This document shows, in pieces, positions 24,055 to 28,999 of a DNA stretch of 64,000 nucleotides. The notes beneath the pieces were generated by a model. It worked only from the letters and a program-made list of their open reading frames with translations. It was not told where the DNA came from and made no database searches. The translations under genes and the position numbers were made by a program. Location: positions 1 to 64,000 of the forward strand of contig MTMF02000009.1 in the NCBI GenBank assembly GCA_002011125.2, written 5' to 3'. The DNA is from Candidatus Hydrothermarchaeum profundi (GTDB lineage: Archaea; Hydrothermarchaeota; Hydrothermarchaeia; Hydrothermarchaeales; Hydrothermarchaeaceae). Numbering within the stretch: the stretch's first letter is position 1; every line of letters starts with the position of its first letter.

Positions 24055-24546
24055 CTACTTTACTTTGACATCGATCTCCTTCTTATTTGCGTAAATGATT
24101 TTTTTAACTTTAACTTTAGCGTTCTTTTTAAGGGTAAACTTATTAATGGACTTATCGGGCTGAATTCCATTAACTTCATATATATAGTAGCCTCCCTCCC
24201 CGTCAATGCTTGTGATATACTCTCTATCTCCGACTTTCTCTATGTTTACTCCAGAAACCTCTTTCAAAACATCGAGGATAGTAGAACCTTTTGGAACTTG
24301 CACTTCGTATTTTTCTTGGAAATTGTCAATCAACTCATAGATTTTCTCAATTCTCGCATGAAGCACATGGCTTCTCCCAAATTTTTTCCTTTCTATTAAA
24401 CCATTCTCTTCCAGAATTTTCACATGCTTAGCCGTAACTGGAACCGATATACCTAACTCTCTCGCTACCTCTGTAATATGCATTTCTTTTTTCAGAAGAA
24501 TTTTGAGTATTTTTCTCCTCGTCTCACTACTCAAAGCTTTAAACAT
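24055..24546 (-). CDS. ArsR-type winged-helix regulator fused to a DUF4430/transcobalamin-like domain
   Basis: Residues 1-75 are an ArsR-like winged helix (FKALSSETRRKILKILLKK, ITEVARELGISVPVTAKHVK, LEENGLIERKKFGRSHVLHA). Residues about 90-163 do not belong to ArsR proteins. They follow the pattern of DUF4430 domains related to the beta domain of transcobalamin: VPKGSTILDVLKEVSG, YITSIDG, GGYYIYEVNG, then SINKFTLKKNAKVKVKK. DUF4430 domains are normally extracytoplasmic; here the domain is joined to a DNA-binding module with no signal peptide, suggesting an intracellular ligand sensor. Neighbours are a Ni/Co transporter, NikR and corrinoid genes. I chose the ATG at 24546 over a TTG three codons upstream. 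Domain call made by eye. Confidence 0.72.
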   Translation of the reverse strand: MFKALSSETRRKILKILLKKEMHITEVARELGISVPVTAKHVKILEENGLIERKKFGRSHVLHARIEKIYELIDNFQEKYEVQVPKGSTILDVLKEVSGVNIEKVGDREYITSIDGEGGYYIYEVNGIQPDKSINKFTLKKNAKVKVKKIIYANKKEIDVKVK

Positions 24547-24611
24547 ATTATCCAAATGGATAATAAAAATATTTAAATTTAATCCAAGGTTCCAATTCCG
24601 CTTATATAGAA

Positions 24612-25866: not shown

Positions 25867-26091
25867 TTGTCCAAAAAAATCTTAGGGAGTAATAAAGACT
25901 GCAAATATTATCCTTGTCACTTCGAAGGCCAAGACTGTACCTGGTGTTTTTGCCCTATATATCCTTGTTACAATCTTAAGAGAGGAGGAAAGCTGATCAA
26001 AAGCAGGCAAGCAAATAAAATACTCTGGAGTTGCAAATATTGTGGCTGGATACACCGGCCAGAAATTGCTAAAAAATTTTTACGGAGATGA
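25867..26091 (+). CDS. Cysteine-rich small-domain protein (COG2158 type)
   Basis: A 74-residue protein with eight or more Cys arranged as in the archaeal Cys-rich small-domain family: CKYYPCHFEGQDCTWCFCPI, then YPC, then CKYCGWIHRPEIAKKFL. The pattern suggests bound zinc or another metal. It is transcribed divergently from nikR. The start is a TTG at 25867 with GAGAGGTT a few bases upstream. The function of the family is unknown, but its position among nickel and corrinoid genes is suggestive. It overlaps the convergent regulator gene by 12 bases. Confidence 0.75.
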   Translation: MSKKILGSNKDCKYYPCHFEGQDCTWCFCPIYPCYNLKRGGKLIKSRQANKILWSCKYCGWIHRPEIAKKFLRR

Positions 26092-26475
26092 AAAAGGCTT
26101 ACCATAAAATTCTTCGAATCTCTTTTTATTTTCATCGGTTAAGTGGAGGAGTGTTCTAGGTCTCCCCCTCTTACCATTTCTTACGGGCTTTTCTGAAATA
26201 AGCCCCACTGAAATTAAGTACTGTTTCCTATCAGATAAAGTAGAGCTTTTAGCAAGGTTTTTCTCTTCCGCCCATTTTACTATTTCATAAAAAGTTTTGT
26301 TATTCTTAGCCCCACTAATCAGAATGCGAGACTCTAAATCCATTGCTTTTCTAATGAGAATTTGATATCTAGTTTCATTAAATAACTCGCTTAACATTAC
26401 AAAATCTACAATAAAATCCTCATCGAAATACCCCTTCATTGTAGATATTATTTCTTCGATTTCTTTGGAATTCAT
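26080..26475 (-). CDS. Winged-helix transcriptional regulator
   Basis: A 131-residue protein whose C-terminal half has a winged helix: YEIVKWAEEKNLAKSSTLSD as HTH and LISVGLISEKPVRNGKRGRP plus RTLLHLT as the wing, a GRPR-type wing common in archaeal regulators. The N-terminal half (VDFVMLSELFNETRYQILIR) is helical and probably dimerises. Its target is unknown; it lies between the Cys-rich gene and the small peptide gene. ATG at 26475. Confidence 0.6.
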   Translation of the reverse strand: MNSKEIEEIISTMKGYFDEDFIVDFVMLSELFNETRYQILIRKAMDLESRILISGAKNNKTFYEIVKWAEEKNLAKSSTLSDRKQYLISVGLISEKPVRNGKRGRPRTLLHLTDENKKRFEEFYGKPFSSP

Positions 26476-26699
26476 TATTCCGAAATTGGCTTGTTGGTTT
26501 ATAAATTTTTTTATTTAAGTACACAGTTAATTAATTCATTATTCAAATCTTAAAATAAAAAAATAGTTGTTTTATGTAATAAAGCTTTTTAATTTTTATT
26601 TTAAAATATAAAGATTAATTTTTTGATTTAAAATTAAAAAAAATTGTCTATTTATTTTAGACGGAATTGCCGGAATTAATATAGTACACTCTCTAAAAC
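26476..26699. other. Very AT-rich intergenic stretch upstream of the peptide gene
   Basis: More than 200 bases made almost entirely of A and T, with a short inverted repeat GTCTA...TAGAC at about 26646-26662 and a TATA-like TTAATATAG near 26675-26683. It has no credible coding frame. It must hold the promoter of the regulator (minus) and of the peptide gene (plus). Confidence 0.45.
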
Positions 26700-26724
26700 C
26701 GCCTCCGTAAAAATCACGGAGGTG
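26700..26724 (+). promoter_or_regulatory. Hairpin that buries the Shine-Dalgarno of the peptide gene
   Basis: CCTCCGT at 26702-26708 and ACGGAGG at 26716-26722 are perfectly complementary around a 7-base loop, and a G-U and a C-G pair can extend the stem to 9. The 3' arm contains most of GGAGGTG (26718-26724), the Shine-Dalgarno seven bases before the TTG at 26732. In RNA the ribosome site would be closed, so translation could depend on temperature, a protein or another RNA. Confidence 0.6.
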
Positions 26725-26731
26725 AAACCTA

Positions 26732-26842
26732 TTGCTGAATAAGATCCTATCAACCCCCATACTGCCTTTAGCGGTCTTCATAACACTATTAGTAATAACA
26801 AGCACTGTATCCGCAGGTGGAGGTTCGTCAGTGGGGCCATAA
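26732..26842 (+). CDS. 36-residue signal-peptide-like peptide precursor
   Basis: A short frame with an excellent ribosome site (GGAGGTG, spacing 7, TTG start). The product has a basic N-terminus (MLNKIL), a hydrophobic core of about 18 residues (PILPLAVFITLLVITS), an Ala-type cleavage motif TVSA, and a C-terminal tail GGGSSVGP. Cleavage after SA would release only eight residues; without cleavage it would be a single-span membrane peptide. The gene has its own hairpin over the ribosome site and a strong hairpin terminator that begins inside its last codons. It faces the CHAT protease gene 17 bases away. I know of no described family with this sequence. It could be a secreted signal, a protease substrate, or a membrane-acting toxin. 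Confidence 0.65.
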   Translation: MLNKILSTPILPLAVFITLLVITSTVSAGGGSSVGP

Positions 26843-26853
26843 ATTATGGCCCC
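26833..26853. terminator. Bidirectional hairpin terminator between peptide and CHAT genes
   Basis: GGGGCCATAA and TTATGGCCCC (26833-26842 and 26844-26853) are a perfect 10-base inverted repeat around one base, in practice an 8-pair stem with a 5-base loop. T-rich sequence follows on the plus side. It overlaps the stop codon of the peptide gene and ends seven bases from the stop of the convergent CHAT gene, so it can serve both transcripts. Confidence 0.7.
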
Positions 26854-26859
26854 ATTCCT

Positions 26860-28905
26860 TTATTTTAATAAAATATCCGCTAGCTCCTCCATCCAATAAA
26901 GCCTATTTCCATATATTACAGGTTGGTAAGGCTCCCTTTCAATCAACTTTGTGATCGTATTTCTGGATATTTCAAAAGTAGGTGTATTAAAATGCAGGTA
27001 GTTCATATCGCATCCCTCTATGTAAGGATGAATAAATCCGCCTATTGTATAATATAGAGTATGGAAAGTAAGAAACATCTTTTCCCTTTTCTTTGATAAT
27101 GTATAATAAATTGGAACAAAAGAATCTCTAAATTGGACTAAAGAATATTCGCTTAATCCTAATATTAAATAATCCTTCCCAAATAGCGATCTTTTTTTAG
27201 CGAGTTCCATAGCTTTTCCAATTGGAAACCCATTCTCAAGAAGTCTTGAAAAACAATATCCCATTTTAATAGCTTCTCTATTCATTATGCTCCACTGTGT
27301 TACAACGCCTCCCAATGAACCACTTTTTAGGAGTCCCACACCCTCATTATAGCTATTACATGCATTAAGGAAAAATAAAGGCGTATTATTCTCTACCAGC
27401 TCTTCAGTTTTAAGGCCCCCATCGACACATACTAGTCCATTTTCTTGGCAATGACCTACGTAATAAACAAGGTCAAATCCTTTTTCGAATACACTAGCAA
27501 GTTCTTCTCTGGATAATAGGTTGAAGATTTTAACCTTCATTTTTATATCATTTCTTTCGCTATACAAGTTTGCCGCCTTTTCTATTTCTTTAGACATTTT
27601 CTTGGCATTGAGCACTAAGGCAATTCTAATTTTATCTTCCTTCTTGTCGAGATATTTCAACTGGTTATAAAATGCCTCCCTACTTGCTTTAGAAACCCCT
27701 ATAGGTATCTCTGGAGCGTACCATATGTGTTCTTGAGAGCATTTGAGTGCAGGTTTCACAATATTTTTTTCATCAAAAATCTGGAAAACACTTTTAGATC
27801 TGAAGAAGTCTTTAATAGAAGCCTTAGTCAATTCTCTCCTAGAAATTCTCTTGCATCTTGGTATTCTTACCATGCCTAGACGGTTTAGAATAAAAGGTAA
27901 TGCCTCAACTCTAGGTAGTTCAGGTTTCACATAATAGGAAAGATGCCATTCAGGCATATAGCGTTCTATTTTCTCCCTTGGGATATTGAAGTATATAGGA
28001 AGCTGTTCAGTAATTCTCTTAGAGAAAATAGCTTTAATATCGAGTCCAAGTCCATCTAAGGCCTTCAATTCCTCTACTTTATTAACATATCCTCCCGCAC
28101 ATCTTACAAGACAGTCCATAAAGAATACCCGCTGCAGTACATTAGATACCTCGTCCTCAAATCTGCTTAAGCTCAGAGGCATTCGATATTCAAATCCGCT
28201 ATCACAATAAAGACTGGGACTCCCAAATTCTATATCAGCAAGCAGGTAGTATACTAAAGGTGCTGCAACATATAGGTAGCCCAACTTCTTAGGTATAGTG
28301 ATTGAAACACCGCTCTTCTTCTCCCTAATATCCCCAGATACAGAGAATTCGTCTTCTATTTTTAGTAATGGGGGATGCTCTCTTAATGTGGGATAACTTC
28401 TCTCGCATGTGTCGATACATATGGAAGAGGAAAGTAGTTTTATTGCTCTCGCTGCATCATCAATAGACTTAGAGATATTTATTAGTCCTATTGGACTCTT
28501 ATGGAAAGATCGTAACCCAAAAATTATATCGGTTCCTTCTTCAAATTTCAAGTATATACGGCTGTGCGTAGCTACTACTTTTATCCATGAATTTACAAAA
28601 ACATATACTTTTACAGGGGCATTTATTTCAAGTATATAATTCCCTTTTTTTAAATATAAGTTATCATGCGGGGTAATCTCCCTTATAATTTCGTAATTCT
28701 TTTCTTTCCTGAGATAGGTCAAATAAAGGTTAAAAGACAAAGCGCTACATTTTCCAGTAAAAATCTCATCCACTCTGTATCTAAATACATATTTTCGACT
28801 AGTACTCGTCCATTTAGTAAGATGAAGCTTGAAAATACTCCCCTGAGCGCTATCAAAGATTTCTAAGGCTTCTTTTTTATACTTGATATCAAATCCCATA
28901 CTCAT
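26860..28905 (-). CDS. CHAT-domain (caspase/separase-fold) protease
   Basis: A 681-residue protein whose C-terminal part is a CHAT peptidase of clan CD. The catalytic His is His485 in LVYYVGHCQENG and the nucleophile is Cys516 in LFFLNACNSYNEG; both are intact and 31 residues apart, as usual, with GVVTQWSI and FGKDYLILG following as in the family. The N-terminal 470 residues have no TPR or WD repeats that I can see. They contain beta-rich stretches (residues 1-130) and a Cys-containing middle region, possibly the recognition part. There is no signal peptide. It is convergent with the 36-residue peptide gene and divergent from cobQ (95 bases). CHAT proteases usually act on partner proteins encoded nearby, so the peptide is the obvious candidate. 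Confidence 0.85.
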   Translation of the reverse strand: MSMGFDIKYKKEALEIFDSAQGSIFKLHLTKWTSTSRKYVFRYRVDEIFTGKCSALSFNLYLTYLRKEKNYEIIREITPHDNLYLKKGNYILEINAPVKVYVFVNSWIKVVATHSRIYLKFEEGTDIIFGLRSFHKSPIGLINISKSIDDAARAIKLLSSSICIDTCERSYPTLREHPPLLKIEDEFSVSGDIREKKSGVSITIPKKLGYLYVAAPLVYYLLADIEFGSPSLYCDSGFEYRMPLSLSRFEDEVSNVLQRVFFMDCLVRCAGGYVNKVEELKALDGLGLDIKAIFSKRITEQLPIYFNIPREKIERYMPEWHLSYYVKPELPRVEALPFILNRLGMVRIPRCKRISRRELTKASIKDFFRSKSVFQIFDEKNIVKPALKCSQEHIWYAPEIPIGVSKASREAFYNQLKYLDKKEDKIRIALVLNAKKMSKEIEKAANLYSERNDIKMKVKIFNLLSREELASVFEKGFDLVYYVGHCQENGLVCVDGGLKTEELVENNTPLFFLNACNSYNEGVGLLKSGSLGGVVTQWSIMNREAIKMGYCFSRLLENGFPIGKAMELAKKRSLFGKDYLILGLSEYSLVQFRDSFVPIYYTLSKKREKMFLTFHTLYYTIGGFIHPYIEGCDMNYLHFNTPTFEISRNTITKLIEREPYQPVIYGNRLYWMEELADILLK

Positions 28906-28941
28906 TTGTAATAAATATAAAACAAAAAGATTTTGCTATAG

Positions 28942-28952
28942 TGGGAATCCCA
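28942..28952. promoter_or_regulatory. 11-base palindrome between the CHAT gene and cobQ
   Basis: TGGGAATCCCA is a perfect odd-length palindrome in the 94-base region between the two divergent start codons. It is GC-rich against an AT-rich background, which makes it stand out as a possible operator. No regulator can be assigned from sequence. Confidence 0.35.
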
Positions 28953-28999
28953 TGAGCAACCAAATTTTTAATATACCTCAAGTGGTCTAGTAGTCTTTG

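Follow-up and report, generated by a model that had tools for sequence, protein, structure and literature searches.

The peptide locus and its neighbors

The window, a stretch of 64,000 nucleotides, comes from a genome of the same family as archaeon OS_PC_MetaG.mb.32 and of the same order as Candidatus Pyrohabitans (Hydrothermarchaeota). It contains a short open reading frame (ORF) preceded by a hairpin, with a divergent regulator gene on one side and a convergent orphan gene on the other. The features of the locus, with their support, were as follows.

26080..26475, minus strand: divergent gene for a TbsP-like winged-helix regulator (PF23336, E 1.2e-14), with a strong leaderless promoter (11.6 bits)
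26600..26651, plus strand: somewhat stronger TATA-like sites, with implied starts at 26638-26674 that would include the 5' arm of the hairpin
26671..26686, plus strand: weak TATA/BRE-like site CGGAATTAATATAGTA (position weight matrix [PWM] 1.9-2.1 bits, posterior 0.18), with an implied start at ~26709 that would remove the 5' arm
26700..26708, plus strand: 5' (anti-SD) arm of the hairpin, CGCCTCCGT (sequence, fold)
26709..26715, plus strand: A-rich loop AAAAATC (fold)
26716..26724, plus strand: 3' arm ACGGAGGTG, which contains the Shine-Dalgarno sequence (fold; SD core >97% paired in silico, 37 to 90 C)
26718..26725, plus strand: Shine-Dalgarno (SD) sequence GGAGGTGA, ending 6 nt 5' of the start codon TTG at 26732
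26732..26842, plus strand: 36-codon ORF with a TTG start, MLNKILSTPILPLAVFITLLVITSTVSAGGGSSVGP, signal-peptide-like or a single membrane helix, with an AXA-type site (VSA) before GGGSSVGP
26832..26854, plus strand: terminator hairpin TGGGGCCATAAATTATGGCCCCA with a T-rich tail, enclosing the stop codon of the peptide ORF
26860..28905, minus strand: convergent gene for an orphan protein with a weak CHAT (caspase-like) match (E 0.011, below the cut-off)

The spacing between the SD and the start codon of the peptide ORF is ideal (6 nt), and there is no in-frame alternative start 5' of TTG 26732 because a TGA at 26723 lies in frame. In hydropathy the ORF ranks among the top 1.5% of open frames between genes, and its codon score is borderline, near the lower limit for genuine genes. 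T-tailed terminators such as the one at 26832-26854, which is of the same type as other GC-rich intergenic hairpins of this genome, occur at just four further sites in 864 kb. (These 864 kb of the same genome, taken as stretches, are the background sample on which our statistics rest.) From the TbsP-like gene to the terminator, the peptide ORF is the sole candidate on the plus strand, so the terminator supports a separate plus-strand transcript for it. The hydrophobic, signal-peptide-like sequence, together with a T-tailed terminator at the stop, suggests that the ORF is real. The peptide had no homolog among 61 archaeal genomes, in the class, or in phage records, and no family match. The weak peptide matches that we inspected were spurious frames antisense to or within larger genes.

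The neighboring genes are likewise orphans. Homologs of the TbsP-like protein were searched for and none was found. The CHAT-like protein (681 aa) carries the motifs YVGHC and LNACNS, which resemble a His/Cys dyad; it had no homolog in the genome, viral, or phage collections searched, and its structure model (pLDDT 34) gave no usable fold. In the searches run, none of the TbsP-like, peptide, and CHAT-like genes had a relative in the class. In most relatives, cobQ either adjoins a small zinc-finger-like gene or is fused to it; in the 11 relatives where the two were found near each other, 60-95 bp separate them. Here the gap is 2.9 kb and holds the three genes (orphan block 26092-28996), and in the same-family genome another insert, with other genes, takes this place. 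By this gene order, the peptide belongs to an orphan insert or variable spot. Elsewhere in the window, an ArsR-type helix-turn-helix is fused to a DUF4430 domain (24055-24555), near a putative nickel/cobalt-type transporter gene and NikR.

A hairpin over the ribosome-binding site

The hairpin at 26700-26724 reads CGCCTCCGT-AAAAATC-ACGGAGGTG, with a predicted minimum free energy of -15.4 kcal/mol (z -4.9) that none of 200 shuffles matched. The exact pairing claimed by the earlier note was confirmed, CCTCCGT (26702-26708) being fully complementary to ACGGAGG (26716-26722) across a loop of 7 nt, and proved longer than claimed, as a G.U pair (26701/26723) and a C-G pair (26700/26724) extend the stem to 9 bp. 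That note had placed ACGGAGG seven bases before the TTG; the gap to TTG 26732-26734 is in fact 9 nt, and it is the full SD, GGAGGTGA, that ends 6 nt before it. The same fold energy was obtained for any leader 5' end between 26620 and 26690. The SD is thereby held inside a stable helix 5' of the start codon, one of the features expected of an SD-sequestering translational leader.

Such occlusion had been called unusual, and for this genome it is. Among 309 SD-led starts in the 864 kb, only the peptide leader covers its SD with a perfect stem (7 bp or longer, with at least 5 G/C), and its helix ranks first of the 309 in strength among those covering an SD. Other GC-rich hairpins, sought in 99.6 kb of intergenic sequence, were nearly all T-tailed terminators at gene ends or lay in apparently unannotated or decayed coding stretches. 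No Rfam 15 family matched the hairpin at the gathering score.

Similar leaders in the same order

We searched the class for the pattern CCTCC-N4-20-GGAGGTGA and found hairpins with A-rich loops in three same-order genomes, from a genus that includes Candidatus Pyrohabitans: G014, G016 (Hydrothermarchaeota archaeon S141_67), and G017 (Candidatus Pyrohabitans sp. JdFR-17). In these genomes, eight start codons are preceded at 5-6 nt by the CGCCTCC...GGAGGTGA arrangement around an A-rich loop, and seven of the eight leaders were followed by a signal-peptide-like N terminus. The leaders of these relatives read CGCCTCCTC-loop-GAGGAGGTGA, and their genes encode reprolysin-type metalloproteases and other signal-peptide ORFs. 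By the features that mark this Pyrohabitans type (a CGCCTCC/GGAGGTG stem and an A-rich loop, 5-6 nt before a signal-peptide ORF), the peptide leader is of the same kind.

The stem pairs beyond the SD differ between leaders in a way that keeps the helix: they are GT/AC in the peptide leader versus TC/GA and CTT/AAG in relatives. The CTT/AAG case, L199:4713 (contigs L199, L200, and L201 are G014:C73, G016:C15, and G016:C36), has arms CCTCCCTT/AAGGGAGG in which both sides changed together, and its upstream region aligns with those of the TC/GA leaders. Between the peptide leader and its relatives, double changes occur at two of the nine pairs (GC/UA versus UA/CG), and all 63 cells of the comparison pair; in this comparison, the peptide has no homolog among the downstream genes, and the SD dictates much of the stem. 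The SD-occlusion layout proposed by the earlier note gains support from pairing apparently kept through compensatory changes, in leaders of nonhomologous genes; its thermometer reading, taken up below, fared otherwise.

A covariance model built without the peptide leader placed the 26700-26724 hairpin at the top of the 864 kb, but scored only 18.6 bits (E 0.12), with the next match close behind. (L199:4713 was excluded from this model, as MAFFT misplaced it by two columns.) In other genomes, the weaker matches were mostly GC-rich or coding chance matches; one, G018:C104, resembles a leader of this type whose stem has a bulge. The peptide leader and the Pyrohabitans-type leaders have the same architecture, a likeness largely forced by the SD itself; common descent is a candidate explanation for it.

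In relatives with a recognizable TATA box (best in the three L199 leaders, weaker in the others), the implied start lies ~9-12 nt upstream of the anti-SD arm, so that the arm is transcribed in those leaders. In the relatives' leaders the same anti-SD arm can also pair in a 5' hairpin (-6 to -10.6 kcal/mol), so that two mutually exclusive folds are possible, and a bistable translational switch in the L199, L200, and L202 leaders is one possibility. The competing hairpin, of the type GAGGRG-GCGC-CTCCTC, was seen against the SD hairpin at L199:8290, 5829, and 4713, at L200:8036, 5530, and 4087 (minus strand), and at L202:589; it is absent from the peptide leader.

Several different secreted-protein genes in L199, L200, and L201 are preceded by a conserved promoter block, GTTCACCAC..GAACATTTTGAAG.TTGT..AAATTA.TTATAG, followed by the SD-lock leader. 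The genes of these cassettes include reprolysin-like proteases, some of them truncated or at contig ends, and a dyad, GTTCA-N7-TGAAC, lies upstream of the TATA box in the repeated leader cassette. The exact hairpin was also sought in viral contigs, where three of four matches fell within GC-rich reading frames. The remaining one, a CCTCCGT/ACGGAGGTGA hairpin at L068:2243-2268, stands before the ATG of a 149-aa ORF and overlaps the end of the upstream gene; its likeness is probably convergence. A palindrome in L011 was set aside, as it lies in apparently decayed coding sequence.

Interpretation and known systems

We read the 26700-26724 hairpin as an SD-lock leader of a single-gene peptide mRNA that is opened by means other than heat, and we regard this as about evenly balanced between right and wrong. 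The transcript would be short (~150-220 nt) and would end at the T-tailed hairpin at 26832-26854, with the lock in its 5' leader. Pairing of the anti-SD arm (26700-26708) with 26716-26724 would hide the sole strong ribosome-binding site of the 36-codon ORF, and little translation would occur before the stem opens, which probably takes a protein or another RNA, or happens in the course of transcription. The peptide leader would then belong to a type of SD-lock leader found repeatedly in this archaeal order, chiefly upstream of secreted-protein genes. The sequence and its pairing, the rank in the genome, the terminator, and the recurrence with compensatory stem changes are observations; inclusion of the 5' arm in the transcript, translation of the ORF, and regulated opening of the stem are inferred.

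Where transcription begins is decisive for the first of these points. Our promoter PWM was trained on protein genes of this genome, as tRNA upstream regions were useless for calibration. It gave a posterior of ~0.59 for a start at or before 26702, which includes the 5' arm, and of ~0.26 for a start within 26703-26716; the best single candidate, 26709, would delete the arm. The probability of any recognizable promoter before the peptide ORF was only 0.50. By promoter position, ~45% of first genes without an SD have leaderless starts, at which the promoter motif begins ~38 nt 5' of the start codon. The estimated length of most SD leaders in the genome is no more than 30 nt, and a peptide leader with the 5' arm needs at least 32 nt. 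The tight limit on peptide production that the earlier note proposed would apply only if transcription starts upstream of 26702.

The strongest rival, which has a real but minority chance of being correct, places the start inside the palindrome (~26706-26710). The mRNA would then begin AAAAAUCACGGAGGUG with its SD free, and the repeat would be a coincidence or, if anything, a DNA operator, for example for the TbsP-like regulator. A TATA-like TTAATATA at 26676-26683 is at the proper distance for such a start, and the resulting 23-nt leader is typical for SD genes here, but the score of this promoter is near background (1.9 bits versus a 98th percentile of 2.9). Also in its favor, the intergenic region 26476-26731 has three CGGAAT motifs, versus 23 in the whole 64 kb. 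Against it, sites resembling the palindrome with up to three mismatches show no enrichment in the genome (28, versus 67 for the reversed control); the best three elsewhere are inside long ORFs, and the corresponding arm in relatives lies 3' of the promoter. The CGGAAT motifs are at 26477-26482, 26662-26667, and 26671-26676, one of them just before the TbsP-like start codon, and are possible candidate sites for an autoregulator.

Alternatively, a strong SD and a complementary stretch may have met by chance, with the ORF being either a frame not under selection or a relic of a gene for a secreted protein, which we judge to be unlikely. Shuffled leaders predict 0.22 such helices in the whole set of 309 and 0.02 for the peptide leader alone; when real intergenic sequence was placed 5' of the peptide SD, a comparable helix arose in 220 of 56,562 cases. 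With an expected count of 0.22 in the sample, a single copy genome-wide is little proof of selection: the helix is unusual at its site, yet a chance origin is possible across the genome. The low-edge codon score and the lack of homologs agree with chance. The first rank among 309 starts, the terminator at the stop together with the hydropathy of the ORF, and the same architecture in relatives argue against it.

It is quite improbable that the transcript is a type I toxin-like mRNA, in which the SD would be locked in the primary transcript and controlled by antisense RNA, within an orphan module including the CHAT-like and TbsP-like genes. The 36-aa peptide is hydrophobic enough to fit a small hydrophobic toxin (its toxicity being putative), the mRNA would have a sequestered SD and its own terminator, the block sits between two cobalamin genes that are neighbors in most relatives, and ZorO mRNA hides its ribosome-binding site in the same manner (PMC8309996). 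However, no antisense RNA candidate was found (nearby sequence has no complementary stretch that contains GC, and the antisense promoter signal is weak), the peptide resembles a cleavable signal peptide, and the locked genes of relatives encode full secreted proteins.

A zipper-type RNA thermometer, in which heat would melt the stem and free the SD, shares the basic layout of an SD in a stem directly before the start codon, but we reject it as scarcely credible: thermometers rely on weak or noncanonical pairs near the SD (PMC8346122), whereas this GC-rich stem has no mismatches and is predicted to stay closed beyond 75 C, with its SD core >97% paired up to 90 C, and extreme growth temperature is disfavored by a tRNA G+C of 63.5% and the lack of a full reverse gyrase in the genome.

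More broadly, and quite tentatively, this archaeal order may use a family of SD-lock leaders to control the translation of secreted proteins. The leaders would be bistable (anti-anti-SD, anti-SD, SD) in Pyrohabitans-related genomes, and the peptide leader would be their minimal version, in front of a mini-gene encoding a secreted octapeptide or a membrane peptide. Structure-controlled access to the SD is well described in bacteria; archaea, many of them heavy users of leaderless mRNAs, offer few documented cases. If true, an SD lock that recurs upstream of genes for secreted proteins would make this uncultured lineage a concrete case in which archaeal translational control could be tested.

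Among known systems, zipper thermometers (ROSE and others) likewise hold the SD in a hairpin right before the start codon; the peptide hairpin differs in having no mismatches or weak pairs and in its predicted stability far above a plausible switching range. Bacterial type I toxin mRNAs (ZorO, DinQ, BsrG) share the short hydrophobic peptide, the SD in a 5' structure, and the small single-gene mRNA, but here no antisense RNA was found and the peptide is signal-peptide-like. The SD-lock leaders of Candidatus Pyrohabitans and related metagenome-assembled genomes (L199, L200, L201, L202) have the same CGCCTCC...GGAGGTGA stem and A-rich loop and are alike in start spacing and signal-peptide N terminus; most of them have a shared promoter region and a competing upstream hairpin, whereas the peptide leader has neither.
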